DNA of 22,323 nucleotides from a virus: positions 1 to 22,323 of IMG/VR virus record IMGVR_UViG_3300017714_000197; one strand, written 5' to 3'. Position numbers and translations under genes: made by a program. This document shows, piece by piece, positions 4,399-17,026 of the stretch (position 1 is its first letter; the number at the start of each line of letters is the position of its first letter). Below the pieces are notes generated by a model. The model saw nothing but the letters and a program-made list of their open reading frames with translations, was not told the origin of the DNA and made no database searches.

Positions 4399-5007
4399 TT
4401 AGTTTCTCCTGTTATGTTTCAAGCGTTGGTCGTTGTACCTTCTTCTGTACAAAGAAAGTTCACCAGAATCTTCATCTTGAATAACAACAGGTTTGTTTGG
4501 ATTTCTAAGAGAATATGACCTAACAGTATTGGGTAATTCCTCTTCAAACCTACCAAATTTTCGCTTTTTCTTACTTCTAAGACGATTGTAAAGTTTATTT
4601 GGAATACGGAATCGAGGATTGCCCATCAAAACTTTGTTGAATCCACCGACTCGATCAAAAGATCCACTCGTATTTGTATACGGTGCGTCTGCTTTCGACG
4701 CATTGGCAATTGCACCAGTTCCCATTTCTTCAAAAAGAACCACATACCCATGTTTGATATGAGTGTCTAGTTCTGACTTTGAAATAAGTTTGGCTTCGCC
4801 GCGATCTTTACTAAAAACAATTGATTGATCTTTTGTTTTTTGTCTTTTTAGATTAGCGACGGATCTTCGCAACTCTGTTGGAAGAGTTGCAAAATTATCA
4901 AGTGTTTCGGGGGATTCAATGTAAGAGGGAATAGCAGGAACCGCTCCGCCGTATACTGCTTCCGCGATGGTTTGAAGATTTCTTTTTATATTTCTATATG
5001 GTTTCAT
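4399..5007 (-). CDS. Unknown basic protein with capsid-targeting-like N-terminus
   Basis: 202 residues, not recognised. The ATG is preceded by AAGGAA and overlaps the upstream stop by one base (TGATG). Residues 14-17 read I-A-E-A, the same tetrapeptide at which the T4 prohead protease cuts internal proteins, after a basic amphipathic leader (MKPYRNIKRNLQT). The middle is mixed, with a GTGAIANA stretch, and the C-terminal third is strongly basic (RLRSKKKRKFGRF, RRRYNDQRLKHNRRN), which would suit contact with packaged DNA. It is probably a virion or head-interior protein (inference). Confidence 0.7.
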   Translation of the reverse strand: MKPYRNIKRNLQTIAEAVYGGAVPAIPSYIESPETLDNFATLPTELRRSVANLKRQKTKDQSIVFSKDRGEAKLISKSELDTHIKHGYVVLFEEMGTGAIANASKADAPYTNTSGSFDRVGGFNKVLMGNPRFRIPNKLYNRLRSKKKRKFGRFEEELPNTVRSYSLRNPNKPVVIQDEDSGELSLYRRRYNDQRLKHNRRN

Positions 5008-5387
5008 CAAACGTTCCTTAGAGTATTTATCACTTTCGCATCTAGAGGAATATCCAAAAGATTGATTGAATCTAGTGAGTCCTCTGGAAGAAAGTTCAAA
5101 TACACAAGGAAGGTTTTTAGTAATGAGTATTGGTCATCATCCAATCGATTGAAAAGCATTCTTGTCGCGGCAGGAAGCCCGAACACATTGTGAAGAATGA
5201 TAATATGATTGAGAATTAGACGTTCCCTTAGAATACCAGATGTATTGTAACGGTTGAACAATCGCTTGATGTATTTTATGCGATTGAAATCCTCTTGAAA
5301 CTCGTCAAGTCCTTTGCAGGAAGGATTATCATAATTTTTCATAGCGTAGCGAATGATATTATCATCATTCAGTTCAAAAAATTCCAT
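5007..5387 (-). CDS. Conserved phage protein of unknown function
   Basis: 126 residues from MEFFELNDDN. The frame stays open further upstream but would run deep into the previous gene. It is all-helical and rich in Leu/Asn/Ile: IIRYAMKNYDNPSCKG, then FNRIKYIKRLFNRY, GILRERLILNHIIILHNVFG, and a C-terminal DAKVINTLRNV. From memory, proteins of this layout (FKYIKRL..R.. followed by LRERLILNH) recur in T4-like marine myoviruses next to structural genes, without assigned function. It sits among virion-type genes. Confidence 0.75.
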   Translation of the reverse strand: MEFFELNDDNIIRYAMKNYDNPSCKGLDEFQEDFNRIKYIKRLFNRYNTSGILRERLILNHIIILHNVFGLPAATRMLFNRLDDDQYSLLKTFLVYLNFLPEDSLDSINLLDIPLDAKVINTLRNV

Positions 5388-5394
5388 AATGTTA

Positions 5395-5898
5395 TCACTT
5401 GAATGTTGCTTTGATGATGTATCCTCTTTGTACAGGCTCAAAGTTGAAGACAACTGTGGTGTAGGGAAGCGTCGTTTCAATTCGTTCGGTTCCCGTCGCT
5501 GAAGTCACCAGATCATCAATAAATTTATCAGCGTCAGACTTTGGTTCACCAAGTCTGTGACCATAAAAGTTCAGTTGAGATTCCAAAGTTCCAGAAGGAA
5601 CGGCTTCTCTCACGATTTTTGGATCAAGATCATAGGAAAGACCACTAATGTTTAGCATGGCTCTTGCCTTTGACAATGCACCAACAACGTCACTCTGAAT
5701 ACCAGCAAGAACGTTATTGAGTCCAGTCAAAATCTCATCCAAGTTTACTGAATTTGCATAAGGCGTGTTTGCACCATTCGCAAAGCCACCAAGATCAGCA
5801 CCAGCAATATCACCAAGGTTACCACCATTAGCATACGCTGTTGGTCCTTGATAATAGTTTTCAGTAATATAATTTTTGATGTCTTTGAACGATTTCAT
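5395..5898 (-). CDS. Unknown virion-type protein with capsid-targeting-like N-terminus
   Basis: 167 residues, not recognised. It starts MKSFKDIKNYITENYYQG: a basic-aromatic leader with I11-T-E13, which fits the (L/I)-x-E prohead protease consensus. A Gly/Asn/Ala-rich low-complexity stretch follows (residues about 18-52, several N-G and A-N-G units), then a helical section (LNNVLAGIQSDVVGALSKA) and a beta-rich C-terminus. It lies four bases after the proline-rich protein gene, in the same transcription unit. Confidence 0.7.
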   Translation of the reverse strand: MKSFKDIKNYITENYYQGPTAYANGGNLGDIAGADLGGFANGANTPYANSVNLDEILTGLNNVLAGIQSDVVGALSKARAMLNISGLSYDLDPKIVREAVPSGTLESQLNFYGHRLGEPKSDADKFIDDLVTSATGTERIETTLPYTTVVFNFEPVQRGYIIKATFK

Positions 5899-5902
5899 TC
5901 AA

Positions 5903-6817
5903 TCACATGCCCTTCTGTTGCTTGAGTTGATTGAACATTTTATCAATCATTGCAAGCATACTTTCGTCATCCATAGCATCCACCATAGCGTTCATTTCTT
6001 CTTCTCTTGGTCTGAAGGACGGTGAGGGATTGAAGACGGGTCCGCCATCGGGCTGAACCATTGGTCCACCGGGAACAGATCCCGGTTGTACGGCTGGATT
6101 CATTGGATTAGGACCGGGGGGAACGGGCATCCGAAGCGGTGCGTCAGGATCAACTCCGAATGGCAACTCAGGTCTGGGTTGCGGTGGGCGACCGGAAGGA
6201 GCCATAGGTGGGGTAAGTGTGGGTGGGTTGTATACAGGTGATCCCGGCAATCCACCATGAACTGGAACATTGGGGTTGATTGGCTGGGGGTCAATCATGT
6301 CAGGAATCCCGTCACCATCCATGTCAGAGTCAAAAGGACTCACATTGTCGGGGATTTGCTCAGGGAACATTGGTGTTCCGAAAGGAAAGCCCGATGGTCT
6401 GCCAGCAGGATCAAACATCTCTGCCTCCGCACCACCTCTACGCATCATGCCATAACCTTCACTCAACTTCTCTTGCTTGGATTGAACAGATTCCACGAGT
6501 TTGTTGAAAACTTCTTTGTGATTGTGCGCACGAAGGACTTCTCTTTCGAAAGCAGTGGCATTCGCAGCAGTCAGTTGCTGACCATTTTGTTTTGCGTGTT
6601 CCATGAGATACTTATTGATCATTCTCTTCATGTCTTCCCAAGTTTGTGCGTTTTCACGCAACTCCATAGCAACAGAGAGAATGTCTTCTTCTGTGATGGT
6701 TTCTGGAAGTTTGATGGTCTTTTTATCTTTATTAGACAAAACACCCTTCACTGCGTCCATAAGTGAACTAGTTTGTGAGGCTTTGCTAAATGGTCCGCTG
6801 GGTGAAAAACTTTGCAT
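5903..6817 (-). CDS. Proline-rich protein with a thrombospondin-3-type calcium repeat
   Basis: 304 residues. Residues 1-130 are helical and charged. Residues 137-270 are extremely rich in Pro and Gly (PPQPRPELPFG, PVPPGPNPMNP), and the last 35 residues form an acidic helix. Residues 163-177 read DSDMDGDGIPDMIDP, the D-x-D-x-D-G-D-G-I-P-D pattern of thrombospondin type-3/OmpA-linker calcium loops. GGAG lies six bases before ATG. It is probably an extended virion or surface protein. L37-P-E39 and I41-T-E43 could be protease sites. TSP3 loops are common in secreted planctomycete proteins and I know no T4 structural protein with one. Confidence 0.75.
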   Translation of the reverse strand: MQSFSPSGPFSKASQTSSLMDAVKGVLSNKDKKTIKLPETITEEDILSVAMELRENAQTWEDMKRMINKYLMEHAKQNGQQLTAANATAFEREVLRAHNHKEVFNKLVESVQSKQEKLSEGYGMMRRGGAEAEMFDPAGRPSGFPFGTPMFPEQIPDNVSPFDSDMDGDGIPDMIDPQPINPNVPVHGGLPGSPVYNPPTLTPPMAPSGRPPQPRPELPFGVDPDAPLRMPVPPGPNPMNPAVQPGSVPGGPMVQPDGGPVFNPSPSFRPREEEMNAMVDAMDDESMLAMIDKMFNQLKQQKGM

Positions 6818-6844
6818 GGAATACTCCTGTTCCCTTTATGTATA

Positions 6845-9800
6845 CTATTTTGTTCTGCGATTGAAATAAGTAGAGGCCATATCGTTGAATTGTCCGGGTG
6901 TCATGGAACGATACATTAGCGTTCGTTCGGGTGTACCCTCTAGTTGACCTCGATGAGTCTCTTCTTCAGTTCTTTTCTTTTTCTTTGCCATGTTTGTAGC
7001 AGTTCCAAAGATGACATCTTTATAATTTTTACCATATCGACTTTTGAAATCTGCTGTCGCATCCTTTTTGAGATCCTCAGCGTACTTATCTCTCAGTTGC
7101 ATTTCTTTCTTTGTAAGAGTTGCCTCCGAGAGTTTTTCGGTTTTGATAAATGTCTTACCCGGATCAACAATGATTCCAAATTCTTTCATAAATGGTACGC
7201 CAACCAAAACTGGTGTACCTTTTTCTGACCGATCATCCAGAGTAAATCGACGGTTTGGATACTTTTTGCCCATAAATTCAATATCAAGTTCAATCATTGG
7301 ACGCTGTTCAACGTCATGTGCGATTGCACCTTGCAGCACAGTCAAGATATCGACAACTTTATTTGTGAATTTCTTGCCGCCATGGGTCCATGTCACCGTG
7401 TCCCCATCGATTTGATATTCATCTGCATGGATTGAGTTTACCACCATGTTTCCAGTGTCGAATTTACCGACCAAAGGTCCAATGCCCTCTACACTCATGG
7501 TTTCTCTTCTTCCGACTACGGTTGGTGAATACATCCAATTGTCCTTATCTAAGATGTGGTCGATAAAGTCTCCCACAATGTTCTGTTTTGTTGCCATCTC
7601 GATTCCCTCGGAACCGGGAGAGGAGTTTACCTCAATTATGTAAGGTTTCTTTGTTTTTGCAGAGACAGCAATATCAACACCGCAGTAATAGCAGCCAATT
7701 GTCTTTGCTGCTTTTAGTGCTAACTCTTCAATTTCTTTACTAATTGAAACTTTTTTGATCTTTGCACCCATTGAGAAGTTGCTTCTAAAGTCATTCTTGA
7801 CTTTTCCTCGATTCATCACACCAACAACCTCACCGTCAAGAACAATGATTCTCATATCACTCTTCATATCAATATATTCTTGAAGAATAATCTCTTCTGA
7901 TTCATCAATTTTCTGAATTGCATCAATAACAGACTTGAGAGATGGCTTACTATCAATAATAAAGACACCCTGACCCTTTGATCCTGTAAGTGTCTTCGCA
8001 ACAACAGGGAATTTCCCGCCAACTTGCTTATGAAGATCTTCGATCATTTCTGGATCAGTGACAAGTGCGGTTCGTGGGGTCGGCAGACCTACTTCCGTAA
8101 GCGTTACGGCAGTGCGATACTTGTCTGAACAGATTTCAATCGAATCTCTTGAGTTGATAACGAAGAATCCGTCTTTTTCGAAGGACGAAATCATGTCAAG
8201 GGTTCCACTCTGTGCAGATGCAGCACCACGGACAATCACAACGGTATCAAATCTATTTGCAATAAACTCTTTTCCGTCTTTGTTTACAACAGTTCGAGTT
8301 CCGTCTTCATTTTTGAAAGATCGTGCGAAAGGAACGAAGGCGACAAAGCAAGGAACGTTTCTTTTTTTACATTCCTCTTTGAGTCTTTTAGCGGTCTTCA
8401 TCAAATTGCTATCGTTCTCTTCGCTGTATCCAGAGAAAATCAAAACTTTGACTGGCTTGCTTGCCTTTCGTTCTTCGTTCATCTCTTTTGTTTTCTTTTT
8501 CATCTGTTCGATAAACTTACGATACACAGCAGCCTCCGCAGTTTTCTTCATCACCTTGGCTCGTTGCTCCATCGCAATCGCAGCCTGAATCTTGTGTGCG
8601 TGCGTTCGGTCAGACGACTTGATTTTACGAACCGATGCCTCAGCCGTTTCTACGTCCTTGAAACCAAGTCCGTGGATTGTGCCTTTTGGATCTTCATCGG
8701 TGTAGAGATCAGAATGAGTATCGGGGTCTTGGTTCTTGCGTGTTTTAGCAATGCGGTTTGCTTCCATAAACTCACGGAACATCGACATCGTGCGACCGAT
8801 TTCAGTTTGCTTGTCACCCGGCTTGCGACCCTTGATAATATTTTGAATGCCAGTCTTTTCAAGATTGCCATACAAGTCAGTCAGCACATCCCCATATCGT
8901 CCGAGTCTGTAATGTTGCAAACTAACATTCGTTTTGGGCTTCATCGTGAGCGGTGTTTCTTCGTCAATCAACTGCAAGACTTTTCGTAGTTCTTTATCAT
9001 TTCCCGAAGTGCTGTATTTTTTTGCTCCCGAAATCTCACCATATTCACCTTCTACAAAACGAACCCAGCCTTTTTCCATTGCCATAAAATCAACGAGGTT
9101 GTCAACATCTCGTATTCCCCGTTTGATTTCATTGAAGTGTCCATCTGCCGCCGATTCTGGGTCATTTCTGTTACTATACTTCTCCACCAAGCGTTCTTTG
9201 ATTTTCTTTTCAGTAAGACCAAAGAATCTTGGATCTTTCACAACCATCTGAATGTGATATGGAGTATGTCCCTGAATGATTCTTGTCTTTCCAGTTTTCG
9301 GATTCACCCAACCTTTGTAGCCCGGAATGTTGACTTCATCGAGTTCCACCTCTTCACGAACACCCATTGCCTTACGAAGATCATCAAAAAGTTTTCGTGC
9401 CTGTGCATCTGTTGCCTTCGACGGCACACCAGTCTTGAATGTTTCAAAATCTCCCTCTGTCGCAGCGGCTCTCATTTTTGACGCAGACATACCAGAAACA
9501 TCTTTTGCGTCTGGGTCGCGTCTACCGGCACTTACAACCTCAAATGAGTCGAGATCAAATGATTTATCTGGATCTGGGTGATTGACATAAGGACGAATCG
9601 TCTTATCGAATTCTTCTACACGATCACCACCGACAACAACAGTAATATTTTTGTAACCTTCGTCTGCCAAATATCCGATAGCATCAAATATTGTGCGGAT
9701 TGAAGGATTATACATAACATTGGCGTTCCTAAAGAACGTTTTCATATAATTTGTTTTAGTTTTTGAATCTAGAGGGTTCTTTCGTTTGTCTTTGCTGTGA

Positions 9801-9982
9801 CTCGCAAAGATAAAATTCGTAGAGCCTCTTTTTTTTGCCTCTTTCAGAACCTTGTTTACCAAAAGTTCATGACCGGAAGTGGGTGGGTTGAAGCGTCCAA
9901 AGGTAAGAACAGCACTTTTACCCTTCCGCTCTTCACGTAGTGATACATCATCATTCACGCCATCATTATAGAATGGTTCCAT
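6845..9982 (-). CDS. Four-part fusion: nucleotidyltransferase, phage helical region, RimK-like ATP-grasp ligase, RimB-like retropepsin
   Basis: 1045 residues; start fixed by GGAGG nine bases before ATG. Residues 23-190: cytidylyltransferase/NMNAT-like fold, with FNPPT35-S-G-H38 (HxGH type) and V-S-G-M-S-A-S-K-M-R171 matching the ISSTxxR motif. Residues 215-510: charged helical region including HAHKIQAAIAMEQRAK. Residues 512-815: RimK-type ATP-grasp, with VVAKTLTGSKGQGV, the LQEYIDMKSDMR stretch, GVDIAV and metal-binding E784-V-N786. Residues 824-948: RimB-like retropepsin (ATP-dependent Zn protease family), with GRRE, K-F-D842-T-G-N, S-I-H-A-D-E and PVLVGVPFMKEFGIIVD. The tail is basic (MAKKKKR). 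RimK adds glutamates to proteins and RimB removes or remodels such tails in bacteria. L15-R-E17-E18 is a possible prohead protease site, so the protein may be packaged and even processed (inference). Confidence 0.88.
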   Translation of the reverse strand: MEPFYNDGVNDDVSLREERKGKSAVLTFGRFNPPTSGHELLVNKVLKEAKKRGSTNFIFASHSKDKRKNPLDSKTKTNYMKTFFRNANVMYNPSIRTIFDAIGYLADEGYKNITVVVGGDRVEEFDKTIRPYVNHPDPDKSFDLDSFEVVSAGRRDPDAKDVSGMSASKMRAAATEGDFETFKTGVPSKATDAQARKLFDDLRKAMGVREEVELDEVNIPGYKGWVNPKTGKTRIIQGHTPYHIQMVVKDPRFFGLTEKKIKERLVEKYSNRNDPESAADGHFNEIKRGIRDVDNLVDFMAMEKGWVRFVEGEYGEISGAKKYSTSGNDKELRKVLQLIDEETPLTMKPKTNVSLQHYRLGRYGDVLTDLYGNLEKTGIQNIIKGRKPGDKQTEIGRTMSMFREFMEANRIAKTRKNQDPDTHSDLYTDEDPKGTIHGLGFKDVETAEASVRKIKSSDRTHAHKIQAAIAMEQRAKVMKKTAEAAVYRKFIEQMKKKTKEMNEERKASKPVKVLIFSGYSEENDSNLMKTAKRLKEECKKRNVPCFVAFVPFARSFKNEDGTRTVVNKDGKEFIANRFDTVVIVRGAASAQSGTLDMISSFEKDGFFVINSRDSIEICSDKYRTAVTLTEVGLPTPRTALVTDPEMIEDLHKQVGGKFPVVAKTLTGSKGQGVFIIDSKPSLKSVIDAIQKIDESEEIILQEYIDMKSDMRIIVLDGEVVGVMNRGKVKNDFRSNFSMGAKIKKVSISKEIEELALKAAKTIGCYYCGVDIAVSAKTKKPYIIEVNSSPGSEGIEMATKQNIVGDFIDHILDKDNWMYSPTVVGRRETMSVEGIGPLVGKFDTGNMVVNSIHADEYQIDGDTVTWTHGGKKFTNKVVDILTVLQGAIAHDVEQRPMIELDIEFMGKKYPNRRFTLDDRSEKGTPVLVGVPFMKEFGIIVDPGKTFIKTEKLSEATLTKKEMQLRDKYAEDLKKDATADFKSRYGKNYKDVIFGTATNMAKKKKRTEEETHRGQLEGTPERTLMYRSMTPGQFNDMASTYFNRRTK

Positions 9983-10044
9983 TATTGATCACCTCCTCGA
10001 CAGTGTTAGTGGATCCACCCACCCCGGTCATGAACTTTTCCAGT

Positions 10045-10167
10045 TCACTTGTTCCAAGGCAGATATCCGCGAAGCCACTCAAACATTGGTTTTCCAATCA
10101 AAGCACCTATTGTAAAAGTAATAAGCGTGTGTGCGATAAATCCGTAAGTTGTTGCTACAAATTCCAT
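10045..10167 (-). CDS. 40-residue membrane microprotein
   Basis: MEFVATTYGFIAHTL opens a peptide with one hydrophobic helix (about residues 8-25) and a basic/aromatic end (WLRGYLPWNK). AAGGAG precedes ATG by seven bases, and a CTAAATA box lies 32 bases upstream of the start. It therefore looks like a deliberately expressed late gene between two long genes. Function unknown. Confidence 0.7.
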   Translation of the reverse strand: MEFVATTYGFIAHTLITFTIGALIGKPMFEWLRGYLPWNK

Positions 10168-10199
10168 TTTTTTCTCCTTGATTGGTTGGGTAACCGTAT

Positions 10200-10206
10200 T
10201 ATTTAG
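10200..10206 (-). promoter_or_regulatory. Late-promoter-like box CTAAATA
   Basis: Reads ACTAAATAA on the minus strand in the 61-base gap before the microprotein gene, and resembles the T4 late promoter TATAAATA. It would place a start site about 25 bases before the ATG and serve the microprotein and the 1045-residue fusion. Confidence 0.55.
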
Positions 10207-10228
10207 TGGTACTGGTTCTTCTGAAAGT

Positions 10229-11428
10229 TTACTTTGTCCAGTCTTTTGATACGGTAAAGTTTGCTTTTGAGAATTCCATACGATCAACAAGTTTCACTGC
10301 TTTGCCCACATGGTCAATTGCAACAAAGCCTTCAGGGTCCGTGACCCTATATCCGTCATCAGTTTTTATAAATGACGGCATTGTATTTAGTGACTGAAGT
10401 TTCCGCAGCACGACTGTTTTTGCCTGTGCCAAGTAGTATTGTGCAGAAAATAAATCATTCATTCCTTTTGAGATCGAATCGATAAATCGGGTTACAGTAT
10501 TTCTTTCGGTTTCTAATTTTTTCTTTGCTGCATCGGTTTTGAGTTTTGCAATCCTCTGGTCAAACCGAGATGCAATAAACCCAGCCAACTCTTGGGCAGA
10601 GCCTCTGTCTTTTCCGACACGAACATTTGCATTTGTATAGATCTTTATCAAATCTTTCAGTGCCTTGTCTGATGTAATTTTATCAATCAGTCTTTTGTTT
10701 TTCGTTAGCACTCTTCGAACACCCGCCAAGTTTTTACGAATCTCTTCTGTTTCTTTTTTGGTAAATGTTGCACTACCGCTCACATCTTTATAATCAGCAT
10801 CATCAAAATACACATTCTTTGATTTTCGTAAGCCAGATACATCTGCACCAAAGTTTGCCTTGAGGTCTGCAATTGTTTTGCCCTCATAAGTCGTGTGAAA
10901 AATAATGCCCATCTTTGCCGCTGCGATTCGACTACCAAGTTTACTATCCACAGGAACCGCATACGTAATCGTGTTTGGTGTGAAAGAGTACATGGATTGA
11001 CCGTCAATCGTTTCGGTATTCACATCCTCCGAAGTAAACAACATATCACCCTGAATCACTCCAGTGATCCCAAGTTTTGAAAGATACTTCAATGCAACTT
11101 TTAGTTTTCCTGCAAGTCCCCCACCATGATTTGCGTCGATGTCTGCATCTGTATAATTGATCTTTGGTGTTTTATTGAAAAGAGACTTAGTGGCAACGAA
11201 AAATTTACCATTCTCTGGGTTGATCCCGGCAAAGACTGCTGGGGCCCCATCCCACTTGACAGTTACATTCATTTTTTTGTTTGAGTTACCTTGGAGCATA
11301 GTCACCAATGATTCAATAAAATTCATTGCCTCATTAGCCCCGGCAGAACCACGATTGAAAATCTCGTCCTCAAGATGTTCGAGGTGAAGATTTTTTTCTT
11401 CAACTAAAAAGTTGCTTAGAGTTTTCAT
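10229..11428 (-). CDS. KxDG-type covalent nucleotidyltransferase (RNA/DNA ligase-like), capsid-targeting-like N-terminus
   Basis: 399 residues. Ligase-superfamily motifs are in order: K58-W-D-G (motif I, adenylated lysine), GKFFVATKSLFNK at 74-86, GVIQGDMLF at 123-131 (motif III region), GIIFHTTYEG at 174-183 (motif IIIa region), E366-G-F-V (motif IV) and V-K379-L-V-D-R (motif V). A helical insert of about 165 residues separates motifs IIIa and IV. It resembles a protein family I recall from T4-like cyanophages (DUF6267). The N-terminus MKTLSNFLVEE has L8-V-E10 at the same position as I8-A-E10 of T4 internal proteins. It could seal RNA or DNA nicks, perhaps delivered with the genome; activity is inferred. 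Confidence 0.75.
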   Translation of the reverse strand: MKTLSNFLVEEKNLHLEHLEDEIFNRGSAGANEAMNFIESLVTMLQGNSNKKMNVTVKWDGAPAVFAGINPENGKFFVATKSLFNKTPKINYTDADIDANHGGGLAGKLKVALKYLSKLGITGVIQGDMLFTSEDVNTETIDGQSMYSFTPNTITYAVPVDSKLGSRIAAAKMGIIFHTTYEGKTIADLKANFGADVSGLRKSKNVYFDDADYKDVSGSATFTKKETEEIRKNLAGVRRVLTKNKRLIDKITSDKALKDLIKIYTNANVRVGKDRGSAQELAGFIASRFDQRIAKLKTDAAKKKLETERNTVTRFIDSISKGMNDLFSAQYYLAQAKTVVLRKLQSLNTMPSFIKTDDGYRVTDPEGFVAIDHVGKAVKLVDRMEFSKANFTVSKDWTK

Positions 11429-11431
11429 TGT

Positions 11432-12550
11432 TTATCCTCTGTACTGGTCAATGAAAGATACAATGTCTCTGCCAAGTTCGACAAGAAGACGGAACCTCAC
11501 GGTATAGCCTTCTCTTTTCTTGTCTGCATCATACCGGAAACGAATCGAAAACACAAGCATGTTGTTTGCGTATAGACCGATTGTCGGGTTTCCTGTTGGC
11601 ATAACTTTCCATTCAACGTCGCCTGTTTTTGAAGTTTCCAAAAGCCCTCGTGAAAGTGCCTCAAAAGTTTTTTTATCGAATGAAAAACCACTCTTGATAA
11701 TTTCAAGATCTTCTTCTCGTCCTCTTGCTGCAACCAACAAACCATTGGTAAGTGCCTTGATATTATTTTCTTTATTGAGCCAGTTTCCACCATACTTCTT
11801 TGAGATCTTTGTAAACACTGGACTCACCGCAGAAAAGATAATTTGCTTATCCTTTGCAATAATTGGATCTGTTCTACTTTGATATACACCAACAATATTG
11901 GCGACTGCCTTTTTCAAATCACCAAGCATACTATTGACATCCATGCCAAACGACTTGAATCCAAGTTGCATGTTCTTGACTGCATCGGAACCAGCAAACT
12001 GACCGACCTGCTTGACACCACCGTACTTGACGGAGAAACCAGCCTTTCGATTTTCTCGACCATTTACAAAAACATCTACATCAGATTTTGTTTTCATCTG
12101 TCCTGACGTTCCACCACAGACAACATCGACCACATCAGGCTTTCCGTTTGTGATGACATCATCAGACAGTTTTTTCAGTGTGCCGTTTTTGTTCACTGCT
12201 TCGATTGCAGTGGTCACAAGAGTTTGTACTTCTTTGGTTCGACGGACTGATGGATTGCTCAATGCCGACAATACTTCTGGAGGAAGACCAGTTCCGTCAA
12301 ATTCAATGACATCAAGACCGTCACCCTCTTCGACTTCCCACGCACGATAGCCACCAAAATATTTCAACATAACATCCTCAACCGCATCTCTTGTTAGTGG
12401 TTGGGGTGTTCCGTCATCAAACCGATCAGTAAATCTGGCAACCATTGCTGCGGCGAGAACAAACTCGTAGGCATGACCTAGATTGAAAGTTACCTCTTCA
12501 TTTAGATAGTTTCTGAAATTTTCGAATGGTAGGTCAATAGGTTCTTTCAT
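11432..12550 (-). CDS. Phage protein with PD-(D/E)XK-like pattern and capsid-targeting-like N-terminus
   Basis: 372 residues, no firm family. The N-terminus carries NFRNYL16-N-E18-E, a basic-aromatic leader with a prohead-protease-like site. Residues 24-40 (LGHAYEFVLAAAMVARF) look like the first helix of a restriction-endonuclease fold with Glu29. Residues 156-176 contain S-D-V-D-V-F-V, then 11 residues later F-S-V-K175, compatible with a D...(S/E)xK active site, followed by KQVGQFAG. Similar proteins appear beside the KxDG protein in marine T4-like phages as far as I recall. It starts with GGAG nine bases upstream, inside the end of the phosphatase gene, with a 17-base overlap. Nuclease activity is only a suggestion. 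Confidence 0.7.
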   Translation of the reverse strand: MKEPIDLPFENFRNYLNEEVTFNLGHAYEFVLAAAMVARFTDRFDDGTPQPLTRDAVEDVMLKYFGGYRAWEVEEGDGLDVIEFDGTGLPPEVLSALSNPSVRRTKEVQTLVTTAIEAVNKNGTLKKLSDDVITNGKPDVVDVVCGGTSGQMKTKSDVDVFVNGRENRKAGFSVKYGGVKQVGQFAGSDAVKNMQLGFKSFGMDVNSMLGDLKKAVANIVGVYQSRTDPIIAKDKQIIFSAVSPVFTKISKKYGGNWLNKENNIKALTNGLLVAARGREEDLEIIKSGFSFDKKTFEALSRGLLETSKTGDVEWKVMPTGNPTIGLYANNMLVFSIRFRYDADKKREGYTVRFRLLVELGRDIVSFIDQYRG

Positions 12551-13232
12551 TTATAATGTCTCCAAAGTTTAGTGTAATAGATTCGGTGAGGGTTGGCAAT
12601 TTTGTTTTATCTAGTTTAGTATACAATTCATCGCCAAGTATCCTACCTGCTTCGATGTCACTAGGGAAATGAACCCCCAGAGCAATTCTAGATTCTGAAT
12701 TTTTATTTGCAATATGATTGAATCGTGAAGATTTTTCTGGATAGTAATTGGACATTACTCGTGCAATCAAATGACCGACTGCGGTATGGTTGCTTGGATA
12801 TCCCGGTGTATCAACTTCAATATGTGGTGTGAATTTGATACCATGATATTTTGCAATTTCTTTTGGTCGGGGTCGATTGTATGAATACTTCATGTTCAAT
12901 GTCACAACGTCGGTGTCTTGCTTGATGAGATCGACAAGATCAATAATCTCAGTTCTGGCTTCAACTTCCTTCAATTCAGTTTTGAACATTTTCAAATAGT
13001 CTTTATCAATTTCTTTATACGCAGCCAAAATCTCGTTACGAAGAATTACTGCGTCCACCACTTCCATGAGTTCCATTTTCAATTCCATAGAAGATGGTTT
13101 CTCTGGTTTCAAAAGTTCAATATCTTTATAGCCTTTGAAAATACTCACAGGTCTTCGCATAATCAACAATTGCACTTGCGAGGGTTTTGCCAGCAGTGGC
13201 TCATTGTTCATATAATTCTTGAAATCAATCAT
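12534..13232 (-). CDS. PAP2-superfamily phosphatase (acid phosphatase/haloperoxidase fold)
   Basis: 232 residues. The three catalytic motifs of the family are intact: K115-Y-S-Y-N-R120-P (KxxxxRP), Y-P146-S-N-H149-T (PSxH) and S181-R-x3-G-V-H188-F-P-S-D192 (SRxxxxxHxxxD). A charged helical region (45-110) precedes the domain. There is no signal peptide and no transmembrane helix, unlike bacterial class A acid phosphatases (secreted) and lipid phosphatases (membrane). Instead it opens MIDFKNYMNNE, the same kind of leader as its capsid-targeting-like neighbours, though the N-N-E site departs from the consensus. The substrate (phosphate monoester, lipid phosphate or nucleotide) cannot be told from sequence. 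The start is coupled to the upstream stop (ATGA). Confidence 0.85.
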   Translation of the reverse strand: MIDFKNYMNNEPLLAKPSQVQLLIMRRPVSIFKGYKDIELLKPEKPSSMELKMELMEVVDAVILRNEILAAYKEIDKDYLKMFKTELKEVEARTEIIDLVDLIKQDTDVVTLNMKYSYNRPRPKEIAKYHGIKFTPHIEVDTPGYPSNHTAVGHLIARVMSNYYPEKSSRFNHIANKNSESRIALGVHFPSDIEAGRILGDELYTKLDKTKLPTLTESITLNFGDIINERTY

Positions 13233-13918
13233 CGTAGAAATTCCTCAACAAGTTTCATATTCACCAGTACCCGAGTCCCCAGATCATGCCCTACAACGGG
13301 TGTCTCGCTCGTCAGAGAGGGAGTAACGCCTAAAGTGGCAAGGTAGTCTCCGAACATCCCCTGATCGTCAGAATCGATTCTACCGCCCTCAAACAGAGGA
13401 TAAAAGTTTCCAATCAGATCCACCATACGGTCCCCCAGATCGTCTGTATCGCTCCACACGAAAACATAGCCCTCCCCCCTCCAAGGGTCTTCCTGAAGGT
13501 CTAGGAAGCCTTCTGAGGCGAGTGGGAGCCAGTAGTCTCGCAGGTCCAGAAGAGCCGCCATTTCTCGGGACGGATCATGCGGAATATCGTGGTTGGGGTT
13601 TCGATTTGCGTCATCTTCATGTTTGCCTGATCTAAAAGTTTCTTTTGACATAATCGGAAGATACGAAACATTTACATTCTTTGGTTTATTATTTTTTACA
13701 TATTCGAGAAGACCAAACCAGCCAGCAGGTTCGTCACCCTGAAATGCAGAGGCGATCATCTTGTTCGGAAGATTTTTATTTTTGTTGAGCGGAACAAAAA
13801 AAGTATGACCATTTTTATCAACTCTTGCATGTGTCGTTTGCACAGCATCTTCAAAATCTTGAAGGTACTTTTCGACCGCATCAACTTCTTCGAAAAGATA
13901 AGATTTGAAATTCCGCAT
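13229..13918 (-). CDS. Unknown acidic protein with capsid-targeting-like N-terminus
   Basis: 229 residues, not recognised. I chose MRNFKSYLFEE because L8-F-E10-E aligns with the leaders of the neighbouring genes. The frame is open 60 bases further, but that extension lies inside the PEP-CTERM-like gene. No Shine-Dalgarno sequence precedes this ATG, and a CTAAATA box ends five bases before it, so translation may be leaderless or reinitiate after the upstream stop. Notable segments are AGWFGLLEYVKNN, a His/Asp/Pro-rich PNHDIPHDPSREMAALLDL, and an acidic middle (WSDTDDLGDRMVDLI). Confidence 0.65.
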   Translation of the reverse strand: MRNFKSYLFEEVDAVEKYLQDFEDAVQTTHARVDKNGHTFFVPLNKNKNLPNKMIASAFQGDEPAGWFGLLEYVKNNKPKNVNVSYLPIMSKETFRSGKHEDDANRNPNHDIPHDPSREMAALLDLRDYWLPLASEGFLDLQEDPWRGEGYVFVWSDTDDLGDRMVDLIGNFYPLFEGGRIDSDDQGMFGDYLATLGVTPSLTSETPVVGHDLGTRVLVNMKLVEEFLR

Positions 13919-13922
13919 ACTG

Positions 13923-13929
13923 TATTTAG
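13923..13929 (-). promoter_or_regulatory. CTAAATA box overlapping the PEP-CTERM-like gene's stop
   Basis: Reads ACTAAATAC on the minus strand. The TAA inside the box is the stop codon of the PEP-CTERM-like gene. A transcript from it would begin almost at the next ATG, so it is either a leaderless late promoter or chance. Confidence 0.3.
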
Positions 13930-14564
13930 TAGCGTCTTCTTCTACCACCCATGAGAATGCCCAAACCACCCAAGGCAACGGACGCAGGAGCAGGAACGGG
14001 AACCGTTTCTAAGTCCGGCATCAACGATTCAAATATCGTAGCAGTTCCATCACCTTGAAGAACTCCGGGGGACGTAGTATATTCGTCTGCCCAAGCGAGA
14101 ATCCAAACCGTTGCTGTCTCTCCGGGGGCTAAAGAACTCGTAGTTGTATCGTCCGAAAAGCCCCAGTCCCATGAGAACAGACCTGTCTCGTAACCAAAAT
14201 TTACATAGTCCGGGGCATTGTAAAAAGGATCTATTTGTTCTTGAATGGGTGTTTCTATAAAGTATCCCGGCATCACAAGAGAAGCGATTTCGGATGTGCT
14301 TTCCCCAACGTAGATGTCGAGGTCTTCGATGTTCAGCATTGACTCCCAACTGTTTTCAACAGTGATTGTCACCAGCATCGCACCTTCGGGAAGACCTACG
14401 ACATCTTGTTGTTCGGGTTCGGTATAAACTGCGGAGGAAACAGTGGCAGAGAAGAATCCATCTTCATCCTGCGACCAAACTTCGTACTCCATAAACGCTG
14501 TCGGATCACCGGCAATATCGCCAAATGCAGCCGTAGTAATAAGTAACGCTAATGGTCTAATCAT
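13926..14564 (-). CDS. Secreted protein with PEP-CTERM-like sorting tail
   Basis: 212 residues. It has a short signal peptide (MIRPLALLITTAAFG), a beta-rich acidic body (SAVYTEPE, LVTITVEN, DLDIYVGE, ETATVWILAW), and a C-terminus reading V-P-x-P191-A-P193, then ASVALGGLGILMGG, then RRRRY. This PAP/hydrophobic/poly-Arg layout is the variant of PEP-CTERM seen in many Phycisphaerae. In bacteria such tails are recognised by an exosortase; no exosortase is in the window, so the host enzyme would be needed. AAGGG precedes the ATG and a CTAAATA box lies 46 bases upstream. It is probably a surface-exposed late product of host origin. Confidence 0.78.
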   Translation of the reverse strand: MIRPLALLITTAAFGDIAGDPTAFMEYEVWSQDEDGFFSATVSSAVYTEPEQQDVVGLPEGAMLVTITVENSWESMLNIEDLDIYVGESTSEIASLVMPGYFIETPIQEQIDPFYNAPDYVNFGYETGLFSWDWGFSDDTTTSSLAPGETATVWILAWADEYTTSPGVLQGDGTATIFESLMPDLETVPVPAPASVALGGLGILMGGRRRRY

Positions 14565-14610
14565 ACAGAAACCCTTTTTGTAAAAGTTGTCCGAAGTATT
14601 CGAACAGATT

Positions 14611-14617
14611 TATTTAG
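14611..14617 (-). promoter_or_regulatory. Late-promoter-like box CTAAATA before the PEP-CTERM-like gene
   Basis: Reads CCTAAATAAA on the minus strand; its TAA is the stop codon of the 278-residue dockerin-like gene. The ATG of the PEP-CTERM-like gene is 46 bases away, with its own ribosome binding site. Confidence 0.5.
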
Positions 14618-15450
14618 GAATTTGAATTTCCCCAAGCCGCAAGAATTTTCAGAATTGCATCGAACACATCGTCATATCTTTCTGCGTCATTCAGAACCAT
14701 CAGTAAGTCTCCAAAATCAACTCTGTCGTCGTAGTTCAAGTCTTCCCAGATTGTGGACTGGGTAGCATCTCCGAAGTAACCGATGGTTTCGTAATAATTC
14801 CAGTGTGGCAAACCGTCATACTTGTTCAGGTTTACACCACCCTTGAATCTTACATTTCCCTTTGTGGTAAGTTGCATAAAAGGATTCTCACCGATCTTTG
14901 CATTTTGAGCATTTGAATTTACGACAACAATAAGTCTTGACAATGTAAAAATATCATTGTTTTCACCCAAGATCAGATTGTTGGTTTGGTTCAGTCGGTA
15001 TGGAGTTGCAACACCGGCACAGGGGTAGTTGTCACCAAGACCGGGAACACCGACACAATCGGGAAGTTCACCCATTGGAAAGTGTGAATCAAAATCCTGT
15101 CGTGGATCTTGTCCCAAGAAGTAGCGAAGCGGACCCGATGGTGTTTGCTCTGCGGTGGACCAAGTGTCTCCCCACGGAACATCGCTCGGGTGATTGTTCC
15201 AGAATCCTTCCTCGGAAGTTGTCACAAGAATAAACGGTGTTTGAGTTGCGATTCTCGCACCGAGTCCAGAGTAACCAGCATTCAGTGGCAAAATACAAGT
15301 CGGTGTTTCCGCATCAATAAAGAAACGATATGTGTTTCCGTATGGAGTCATACGACCCATATTTTGAATACGAAGTCCGGTGGTACAATCCTCACCCGGA
15401 TCATTGTCATCACCAAGAGCAATAGCAGCAGATAAAATCAAATCAATCAT
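14614..15450 (-). CDS. Secreted dockerin-like protein B
   Basis: 278 residues. A very short leader (MIDLILSAAIALG) ends before DDNDPGED. After it comes M-G-R-M-T-P-Y-G-N-T-Y, shared with the upstream paralogue. The C-terminus (about 236-274) has E-D-L-N-Y-D-D-R-V-D-F-G-D-L-L, a calcium-binding dockerin/EF-hand-like loop, then a second helix ending LKILAAWGN. That is the planctomycete-style dockerin layout, with the terminal cysteine missing. A cysteine-containing body suggests export to an oxidising compartment. GGGGA lies seven bases before ATG, and the start overlaps the end of the upstream paralogue by eight bases. Its binding partner (a cohesin) is not in the window. Confidence 0.75.
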   Translation of the reverse strand: MIDLILSAAIALGDDNDPGEDCTTGLRIQNMGRMTPYGNTYRFFIDAETPTCILPLNAGYSGLGARIATQTPFILVTTSEEGFWNNHPSDVPWGDTWSTAEQTPSGPLRYFLGQDPRQDFDSHFPMGELPDCVGVPGLGDNYPCAGVATPYRLNQTNNLILGENNDIFTLSRLIVVVNSNAQNAKIGENPFMQLTTKGNVRFKGGVNLNKYDGLPHWNYYETIGYFGDATQSTIWEDLNYDDRVDFGDLLMVLNDAERYDDVFDAILKILAAWGNSNS

Positions 15451-16537
15451 TACAATTTCCCCATTCAGATAAAACTTTCAATACGGCAGAGAAGCCGTTA
15501 TTTGTTTGTGGATGATACTTACTCGCAGCAACATCCCCTAAAACTTGCAACAAATCTTGAAATCCAACTGTGCCATCTTCGTTGAGATCAGATGGGCAAG
15601 AATTGTCAGCATAGTAGTCTACAAAGTATGGGGCACGGTCGCAAGGATAACCTTGATTACACGCAAAACGAATCACTCCACCACTTCCGAAGTAGTCAGG
15701 ACCAGTAAATCGTGCAATGTGATATGAACCGGGATGCTTTTCGCTCGACCAGTCTACATCAGTGCCACGCCACATAATCAAATCACCGTAATCATTCTGA
15801 CCGGGAGAAGAGCAACAGACTTGCCCAACAATGGTGTCAAGAGGTGTCCAGAACTTGATTACTCTATTGAGTGAATAGTGTGGTGTTATGAGATCGGCGT
15901 GTTGTTGCTGTACTTGTGGGTATTTGGGAGTACCGAACGCACCATACTTCTTACCGGGTTCTCCGTGAAGAATCCAAGAGTCACACCAGAAGTATTCTAG
16001 ATTCGTCAGATCAAATGTGTTCGGAATACCACCGGGTGCATCCCAATTGACTGGGGTATAGTTCTGTCCAAGATACATCCAGCGTTGGTAGGGATTGGAC
16101 TGAATGCAATCCCAATACGTGCCGGGAATGTCGCAGGACACAACCGTTCCATCGTCTTGCTCCCAAGTTTCAAACGTGGTGTATCCCTGCCAATATTCAA
16201 TACATTCGGGACAATTCTCAAGGAATGGGTAAGTGGCATCGTTGCGGTTCTTGAAAACATCCCCTTCAATATTCCACGCAAACGCACGAGTAGGAATCTC
16301 GCTTCCACGAGTAGACCCAATCATATACGGGGGACGGGAACTACCATCAGGCTGGGAGAACTCGGGGTCAAACCCTGTCTGAATGTAAACGTCGAACGTC
16401 CGACCAAACGGAGTGAGTCTACCAAGATCGTCAATCCACATTTCAACCGTGTCGGGATTGGTTGGTTTGCCGCCGTTATCACCAGCAAAACTAAAAGAAG
16501 AAAGTGCGAAAACTACAAGAGTACAAAAATGCTTCAT
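15443..16537 (-). CDS. Secreted dockerin-like protein A
   Basis: 364 residues. I take MKHFCTLVVFALSSFSFA as start and signal peptide because GGAGG is eight bases upstream; the earlier in-frame ATG overlaps that site. The body is rich in Trp, Tyr and Cys (about ten Cys), with L-G-R-L-T-P-F-G-R-T-F near residue 38, shared with the downstream paralogue. C314-P-S-D-L-N-E-D-G-T-V-G-F-Q-D-L-L is a dockerin type I-like calcium loop, and the protein ends L-K-V-L-S-E-W-G-N-C, as planctomycete dockerins do. It has a late-type box 19 bases upstream and is first in the dockerin/PEP-CTERM operon. It could be a virion surface or exported host-interaction protein; catalytic motifs are absent. Confidence 0.8.
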   Translation of the reverse strand: MKHFCTLVVFALSSFSFAGDNGGKPTNPDTVEMWIDDLGRLTPFGRTFDVYIQTGFDPEFSQPDGSSRPPYMIGSTRGSEIPTRAFAWNIEGDVFKNRNDATYPFLENCPECIEYWQGYTTFETWEQDDGTVVSCDIPGTYWDCIQSNPYQRWMYLGQNYTPVNWDAPGGIPNTFDLTNLEYFWCDSWILHGEPGKKYGAFGTPKYPQVQQQHADLITPHYSLNRVIKFWTPLDTIVGQVCCSSPGQNDYGDLIMWRGTDVDWSSEKHPGSYHIARFTGPDYFGSGGVIRFACNQGYPCDRAPYFVDYYADNSCPSDLNEDGTVGFQDLLQVLGDVAASKYHPQTNNGFSAVLKVLSEWGNCND

Positions 16538-16556
16538 TACAAAGACCTCCATAATT

Positions 16557-16630: not shown

Positions 16631-17026
16631 TTATTGAATTTGGATTTCCTTTGGTTTCTTTTCTTCAGGTACAATCTTGTGAACATTTACAGAAAGAATT
16701 CCGTCTTCACAATATGCTCCCGTGACGTTCCAATCCTCGGTGAGAGGAAGTCGCGTGCGGAACTTTCGGCGAGCGATTCCTCGATGCTCGAACATCTTCT
16801 CTTCCGTAGATTCACGATCAGAAGCAACTTCCAAAACCTTGTAATTCTGAGGGTGGGGGATAACAGTAATTGATAAATCATTTTTCTTATATCCTGCCAG
16901 TGCAAACTCAATGGTTGCGTTTTCTTCGTCGTGACGAATAATGTTGTATGACGGGAAATTCATATTCTTTTCTAATCCCCGTTCAATTTCAGTAATATGA
17001 TCCCAAAAATTTTCAATACTCAGCAT
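16631..17026 (-). CDS. Small heat-shock protein (Hsp20/IbpA-like)
   Basis: 131 residues, typical length for the family. It holds unfolded proteins in an ATP-independent way. Seen: FPSYNIIRHDEENATIEFAL opening the alpha-crystallin domain, then AGYKKNDLSITV, F-E-H-R-G-I-A-R-R-K-F-R-T-R-L-P-L, and GILSVNVHKIVPEEKKPKEIQI with the C-terminal I-x-I motif (I-Q-I). AAGGAG precedes the ATG. A CTAAATA box is 58 bases upstream and a strong terminator follows, so it may be its own transcript. Hsp20 genes are widespread in T4-like marine phages, presumably aiding capsid or tail folding. Confidence 0.92.
   Translation of the reverse strand: MLSIENFWDHITEIERGLEKNMNFPSYNIIRHDEENATIEFALAGYKKNDLSITVIPHPQNYKVLEVASDRESTEEKMFEHRGIARRKFRTRLPLTEDWNVTGAYCEDGILSVNVHKIVPEEKKPKEIQIQ

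Follow-up and report, generated by a model that had tools for sequence, protein, structure and literature searches.

The DNA analysed here is a 22,323-base fragment of an uncultured virus from IMG/VR (IMGVR_UViG_3300017714_000197), and "the window" denotes this whole stretch. Its relatives are T4-like phages, among them HTVC008M, Melnitz, Mosig and cyanophages. Seven genes form a single block on its minus strand, spaced by overlaps or by a few bases, except that the gap before the fusion gene holds a short reading frame. Their proteins begin with leaders that are very probably T4-type capsid targeting sequences (CTS). The genes are as follows, with a slash for the putative cut; proteins are named below by their lower coordinate or by their family.

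13229–13918, minus: uncharacterised protein, 229 amino acids (aa); leader MRNFKSYLFE/E, codons 13889–13918
12534–13232, minus: PAP2-family phosphatase, 232 aa; MIDFKNYMNNE, codons 13203–13232, (L/I)xE step lost
11432–12550, minus: uncharacterised protein, 372 aa; N-terminus MKEPIDLPFENFRNYLNEE; leader at residues 9–18, FENFRNYLNE/E, codons 12497–12550
10229–11428, minus: DUF6267 protein, RNA-ligase-like, 399 aa; leader MKTLSNFLVE/E, codons 11399–11428
6845–9982, minus: fusion protein, 1045 aa; weak leader MEPFYNDGVNDDVSLRE/E, codons 9932–9982, SLREE at residues 14–18
5395–5898, minus: uncharacterised protein, 167 aa; N-terminus MKSFKDIKNYITEN; leader MKSFKDIKNYITE/N, codons 5860–5898
4399–5007, minus: uncharacterised basic protein, 202 aa; N-terminus MKPYRNIKRNLQTIAEA; leader MKPYRNIKRNLQTIAE/A, codons 4960–5007

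N-terminal leaders of the gene block

A first-pass annotation of this DNA had proposed that the leaders send the proteins into the prohead, for cleavage by a gp21-type protease. The seven N-termini that it quoted all match the gene list and translations, in one minus-strand block. As it described, T4 ipII and ipIII begin with MKTYQEFIAEA, the (L/I)xE step lies at residues 8–10 in two of the proteins (10229 and 13229) as in ipII and ipIII, the PAP2 start is without the step, and SLREE of the fusion spans residues 14–18.

Genetic analysis of the T4 CTS assigned residues 4 and 7 to targeting, and residues 8 and 10 to processing (PMC9026906; papers are cited here by PMC number, each for the excerpts available). 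Both targeting positions are aromatic in 13229 (F4, Y7), in the PAP2 protein (F4, Y7) and, with an offset of 8, in 11432 (F12, Y15). They are partly aromatic in 10229 (L4, F7), 5395 (F4, I7) and 4399 (Y4, I7), and the fusion has F4 only. The Glu of the (L/I)xE cut site is E10 in 10229 and 13229, E13 in 5395, E16 in 4399, E17 in the fusion and E18 in 11432; the PAP2 protein has no such site.

To score the leaders I used a matrix whose training set was the DUF6267 leaders only, with T4 sequences excluded. It gives 11.6 bits to 11432, 9.3 bits to 10229 (a member of the training family, so that its score is not independent) and 9.1 bits to 13229, with weaker scores for 5395 (3.1 bits) and 4399 (2.0 bits). 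The seven leaders are unequal: three are strong, two are weaker, the PAP2 protein has the targeting half only, and that of the fusion is degenerate. At least 7 bits is reached by 4 of the 39 window genes, one of them DUF6267 and one an HSP20 gene outside the block, versus none of 119 internal Met positions of the window, and a loose aromatic-(L/I)xE pattern fits 9/39 genes versus 2.4 in shuffles.

Homologues of the window proteins, at 31–93% identity, retain the leader pattern as the remainder of the protein diverges (loci of related contigs carry L numbers). That of 13229 is kept in 4/4 relatives outside near-identical contigs (57–76% identity), as MRTFKTYLTEE, MKDFRTFITEE (two contigs) and MKSFRKFLVEE, and that of 5395 is kept, with small shifts, in all such relatives (MKTFKEIRQNVSEN, MKSFKDIRSKLTEE, MKTFKELRSQVNEE). 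The 11432 leader is kept in L169, L098 and L089, and as INEE or IKEE in L088 and L171; its E18 is invariant in six homologues. A relative of 4399 at 76% identity has MKTYKEIKEKFEMIAEA. In AlphaFold2 models, residues 1–16 of DUF6267 and 1–22 of 11432 have a predicted local distance difference test score (pLDDT) below 50, as expected of a removable tail.

The PAP2 assignment rests on PF01569 (E 1e-12, 48.4 bits, cut-off 27.2). In its homologues the step is shifted one to several residues later, as KILNEAAS, SVLHEAAS, KVLHESAT or ISLEE. An apparent loss of this leader in L173 is probably not biological: that contig, near-identical elsewhere, has one base less in an A-run (L173 near 2330, window near 13185), which breaks the PAP2 frame and is likely to be a sequencing difference. 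The 11432 protein, previously labelled a possible nuclease, has no match in a Pfam search and a conserved SDVDV...SxKY that is only suggestive of such an activity; fold searches lent the label no support, their best hits being to unrelated folds (Z 4.2).

Correspondence with T4 capsid targeting

The 10229 protein belongs to DUF6267 (PF19782, E 3.4e-117 in a Pfam search), a family with homologues in 464 phage records and at least 599 IMG/VR stretches; these counts measure how common the gene block is, the tag being absent from some DUF6267 homologues. Among its IMG/VR relatives, (L/I)xE precedes a conserved HLEH stretch in 87 of 89 distinct N-termini, and 75 of the 89 have the full motif of aromatic-xx-aromatic-L-x-E. 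In 65 distinct leaders, themselves selected by the full-motif pattern, T4 position 4 is F in 57, position 7 is F in 31 and Y in 27, and position 8 is L in 53 and I in 12. An alignment of 48 of the 56 sequences shows E10 in at least 90% of them.

Applied beyond its training family, the matrix ranked ipII and ipIII as the top two of 254 T4 genes, at 15.1 bits each. Slid along T4 gp23, it found its best site at E65 (14.4 bits), in agreement with the 65-residue propeptide described in section 9 of PMC9026906. The marine gp23 proteins of Melnitz, Mosig and HTVC008M have FLxE (FLSE or FLGE) at residue 52, which is the best gp23 site in Melnitz and Mosig and not the best in HTVC008M; the same scan gave no good site in S-PM2 gp23.

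Loci chosen around DUF6267 and fusion homologues, rather than a random phage sample, were surveyed with both the matrix and a strict motif. Loci from the same contig (L086, L166, L167, L168, L170, L174, L250, L251 and L252) were removed before counting and identical proteins entered once. The gene caller was a simple script that picked late starts for the 11432 homologues in L088, L089 and L171, so that for genes of this kind the leader counts are minimum values. With DUF6267 included, the strict motif was found at 254 of 1831 N-termini; shuffles gave 41.8, and among internal Met positions 194 of 9649 had it. Outside the DUF6267 family, 89 of 1705 N-termini scored at least 9 bits versus 23 of 8538 internal Met positions, and 66 versus 6 scored at least 12 bits. 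These matches span 31 families, whose best member shares locus and strand with a DUF6267 gene in 29 of 31, in loci that had been chosen around such genes. As controls, lambda, P-SSP7 and HTVC010P gave no match, and SPO1 gave 1 versus 1.2 expected.

Four families, gp33-like, UvsX, IscA-like and HSP20, pass the strict pattern, apparently by chance, and were excluded from the cargo; the first three names come from reading the N-termini, a family search having been made only for HSP20. The HSP20 protein of the window (16631–17026) starts with MLSIENFWDHITEIE and scores 10.1 bits as a leader, and the strict pattern also fits 3 of its 4 distinct relatives. Its leader could be chance, or the protein could be a packed chaperone.

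The gp21-type S77 protease (PF03420) is present in all four complete relatives and in 7 of 20 related contigs, most misses being fragments. A candidate late signal also lies at the head of the block:

13923–13929, minus: candidate T4-type late promoter CTAAATA, directly upstream of the block and in the same place in relatives

In phage Aeh1, CTAAATA serves as the late promoter (PMC1524935). It occurs eight times in the window, always on the minus strand, versus 2.1 expected. The classical T4 late promoter, TATAAATA, was looked for and is absent. The CTAAATA copy ends 4–5 bases before the 13229 ATG in the window and in all relatives seen (L169, L171, L172, L089); if it is a promoter, the late transcript would begin at or beside the start codon.

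Enzymes behind the leader and their homologues in virions

The first-pass description of the DUF6267 protein as ligase-like is supported by an invariant KWDG (K58 W D G, in 48/48 proteins), which matches the KxDG motif I of covalent nucleotidyltransferases, and, at middling Z, by structure searches. With VIA-align the top 13 rows are RNA ligases (Z 6.9–7.7) and nearly all 50 rows are ligases, the best of them with a root-mean-square deviation of 4.1–5.0 over 187–193 residues; the best ligase row in Foldseek has E 0.086. T4 Rnl2, RNA editing ligase and Naegleria ligase share with it the KxDG and these top structural rows. Two points set it apart: sequence searches of the PDB found nothing significant, and Z stays below 8. 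Ligase activity is a prediction. The EGFV and VKLVDR stretches presumably correspond to ligase motifs IV and V.

The fusion protein has four recognisable parts:

Residues 1–220: NMNAT/cytidylyltransferase-like domain
Residues 401–510: mobile module
Residues 619–810: RimK ATP-grasp domain
Residues 869–949: Zn_protease domain

Its SLREE is kept in a relative at 62% identity. A shorter homologue with the same domains in L091 has the canonical leader MKKFRDILAEA, and a canonical leader stands on a 683-aa cytidylyltransferase-RimK-Zn_protease protein with the domain order of the window fusion. Canonical leaders also occur in relatives on separate ATP-grasp proteins and on separate cytidylyltransferases (MKFREFITEN, MKFRDYIQEA and MRFSDFLQEQ, in L102, L120, L135 and others), so the tag is also borne by proteins unfused to RimK. 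A sequence search of the N-terminal domain against the PDB gave nothing usable. The database record of YerA41, for which 63 particle proteins were found by mass spectrometry, labels an ATP-grasp homologue a structural protein.

The mobile module, about 100 residues encoded at 8453–8782 of the window (HSDLYTDEDPKGTIHGLGF...MKKKTKEMNEE), is shared by some ten protein families in the relatives. There it can also stand alone behind a tag (MKTFKQFIEAPRIPRKKG...), and a protein of the DUF6267 family has it as an insertion. Pfam and PHROG searches of the fusion gave no match over the module.

Other enzymes with the leader are adenylate kinase, 5'-nucleotidase and cytidylyltransferases, together with a zeta/AAA_33 kinase that has a further match to a polynucleotide kinase (PNK) family and a HAD protein that matches another such family. 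A Pfam search of representatives of 20 of the 31 families left 12 without a match.

Homologues of the fusion N-terminal domain have been detected in cyanophage virions. Those of S-SM1 contained the cytidylyltransferase T4-GC190 as well as gp21 (Sullivan et al., 2010, PMC3037559), those of S-CREM2 the cytidylyltransferase ORF154 (PMC10665884), and those of S-SCSM1 the NMNAT ORF91, a kind of protein described as frequently detected (PMC9602691). All three begin with the leader, at 13.3, 19.2 and 19.0 bits respectively, and S-SCSM1_91 matches fusion residues 17–214 (E 7e-41, 38.6% over 202 residues). Unlike these cyanophage enzymes, the NMNAT-like domain of the window is part of a fusion with RimK and Zn_protease, and its leader is poor. 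The S-PM2 homologue is leaderless and was undetected in virions; its annotated gene looks frame-disrupted, and its non-detection weighs little because some true structural proteins likewise escaped detection in that study. The link between leader and virion detection comes from few phages, namely these three with the leader detected and S-PM2 without it undetected.

Readings of the leaders and neighbouring genes

I consider it very probable that the leaders are T4-type CTS, and that the enzymes are packed in the head and delivered with the DNA. The enzymes would be made late in infection, and each would dock in the prohead core through its first ten or so residues, aromatic at 4 and 7. A gp21-type protease would cut after the Glu of (L/I)xE, freeing the mature enzyme inside the head, and the enzyme, packed with the DNA, would enter the next host together with it. 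The PAP2 protein, without a cut site, would be packed uncleaved, and the fusion would enter poorly or via another determinant. For the window proteins, the late timing, packing, cleavage and injection are inferred.

Several observations weigh against this reading. The matrix scores the PAP2 protein at −2.4 and the fusion at −9.2 bits, the more distant relatives of 4399 are without the step, and a 1045-aa cargo would be unusually large beside T4 IPI–IPIII. The HTVC008M cytidylyltransferase has no good leader. Among the 34 genes gp146–179 of S-CREM2 only gp154 reaches 7 bits, and 7 of the 8 virion proteins encoded there are untagged. About half of the cytidylyltransferases in the cyanophage sample bear the leader, so that three detections out of three are suggestive rather than proof. 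No prohead protease was found in the 22,323-base fragment; the four complete relatives all have one.

Homologues without a leader likewise count against it. DUF6267 is leaderless in the cyanophages S-SM1, Syn9, S-PM2, DSL-LC02, S-WAM1, P-RSM6, P-HM2, S-MbCM7 and Syn1, where it starts as MSKNTHLEHLED, MAKNTHLEHLED or MKNTHLEHLED, that is, as the mature part without the tag, whereas most IMG/VR relatives keep the leader. In DSL-LC02, S-WAM1, P-RSM6, Syn9 and S-SM1 the adjoining cytidylyltransferase bears the leader although DUF6267 does not; in P-HM2, S-MbCM7 and Syn1 both are without it. Gain or loss therefore appears to involve the whole tag at once, and some phages would not pack DUF6267 in this way.

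It is unlikely that the leader merely docks assembly or scaffold aids in the prohead core, which after cleavage would be mostly destroyed or left in the shell with no enzyme delivered. T4 core proteins do meet this end, being cut to pieces and mostly removed (PMC9026906, section 9), and an enzyme domain is missing from several of the leader proteins. Many others have recognisable domains (adenylate kinase, PNK/zeta-like kinase, nucleotidase, RimK and NMNAT-like) that would nevertheless be odd in a scaffold, and the cytidylyltransferase homologues of S-SM1, S-CREM2 and S-SCSM1 persist in mature virions.

It is very unlikely that the N-termini are alike because phage genes generally start in this way (with a Lys-rich second codon and an amphipathic first helix), or because they dock to a cytoplasmic partner, with no relation to the capsid. 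Starts with MK are common, and the loose motif is near chance in whole genomes (10/193 in Syn9 versus 11.3 expected, 15/236 in S-PM2 versus 15.5); this genome-wide count is not significant, and was set aside as too weak to be informative in favour of the strict pattern and the trained matrix. The chance-like matches in UvsX, IscA-like, gp33-like and HSP20 families also fit such an explanation. It is at odds with the strict-motif excess over shuffles, the position-exact fit to the T4 determinants, the recovery of ipII, ipIII and gp23 E65, the virion detection of leader-bearing homologues and the controls from lambda, P-SSP7, HTVC010P and SPO1. A chance resemblance confined to the window has almost no probability left: two of the seven leaders are low-scoring, but the same leaders in homologues at 31–93% identity and in about 31 other families already contradict it.

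Capsid targeting, as first proposed, is thus right in substance for at least three window proteins and probable for two more. It stands on the T4 determinants conserved in DUF6267, the T4 proteins recovered by the matrix, gp21 in relatives and the leader-bearing virion homologues, and needs qualifying for the PAP2 protein and the fusion. Taken together, the comparisons support a variant of T4 capsid targeting with large enzyme cargo, one enzyme being RNA-ligase-like. With the T4 CTS, gp21 and IPI, IPII and IPIII it shares the leader length, aromatic residues at 4 and 7, L/I at 8, E at 10 and the (L/I)xE cut motif, and in both T4 and the window clade diverse cargo stands behind a conserved tag and an S77 protease is encoded. 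Unlike the small T4 internal proteins (about 8–20 kDa; PMC9026906), the window cargo comprises large enzymes and uncharacterised proteins of 167–1045 aa. The window belongs to another clade, some of its leaders are shifted or longer, and packing is here deduced from sequence. The SPN3US and phiKZ-type ejection proteins, a giant-phage system, are alike by description: the abstracts available present them as proteins of the head that a prohead protease cleaves and that are ejected. In the portions of the literature covered, such tags were studied in T4, SPN3US and P1, and T-even relatives are said generally to have CTS-like proteins. The open-licence literature, as far as it was covered, yielded no description of the tag in marine T4-like phages or of a link to the virion NMNAT, and no paper on DUF6267.

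A wider idea, conceivable though rather doubtful, is that abundant marine T4-like phages bear an exchangeable capsid-entry tag on a whole set of enzymes. Injected with the DNA, this kit would repair cleaved tRNA or nucleic acid and replenish NAD and nucleotides immediately, ahead of the reading of any phage gene, against first-response host defences. The kit would comprise the RNA-ligase-like DUF6267 protein, a PNK-like P-loop enzyme, a PNK-phosphatase-like HAD enzyme, adenylate kinase, an NMNAT-like enzyme and RimK/peptidase fusions. If the leaders do act as capsid-entry tags, ten residues would suffice to predict, from sequence alone, the proteins that marine T4-like phages bring into their hosts, and the tag would account for the frequent finding of NMNAT-like enzymes in virions of cyanophages (excerpts of PMC9602691). 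Many uncharacterised genes would become candidate injected effectors, and marine phages would gain a delivery tag.

Several neighbouring genes are without a leader or lie outside the block. Between tagged genes, 5903–6817 encodes a leaderless proline-rich protein with a calcium-loop-like stretch, DSDMDGDGIPDMIDPQ, whose more distant relatives reach a length of only about 100 aa. On the plus strand, 1140–1874 encodes a protein that is porin-like when read by eye; it has no Pfam match and is kept at 68–86% in several related contigs and at 34% in one. Three secreted-looking proteins, unusual for a phage, lie at 13926–16552 and are kept in related contigs; read by eye, one has a PEP-CTERM-like tail (GGRRRRY) and two have dockerin/EF-hand-like ends, which hints at the host. 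Elsewhere, locus L088 (7908–18129) holds four paralogues of one uncharacterised family, two of which bear the leader MKSFKRFLKE.

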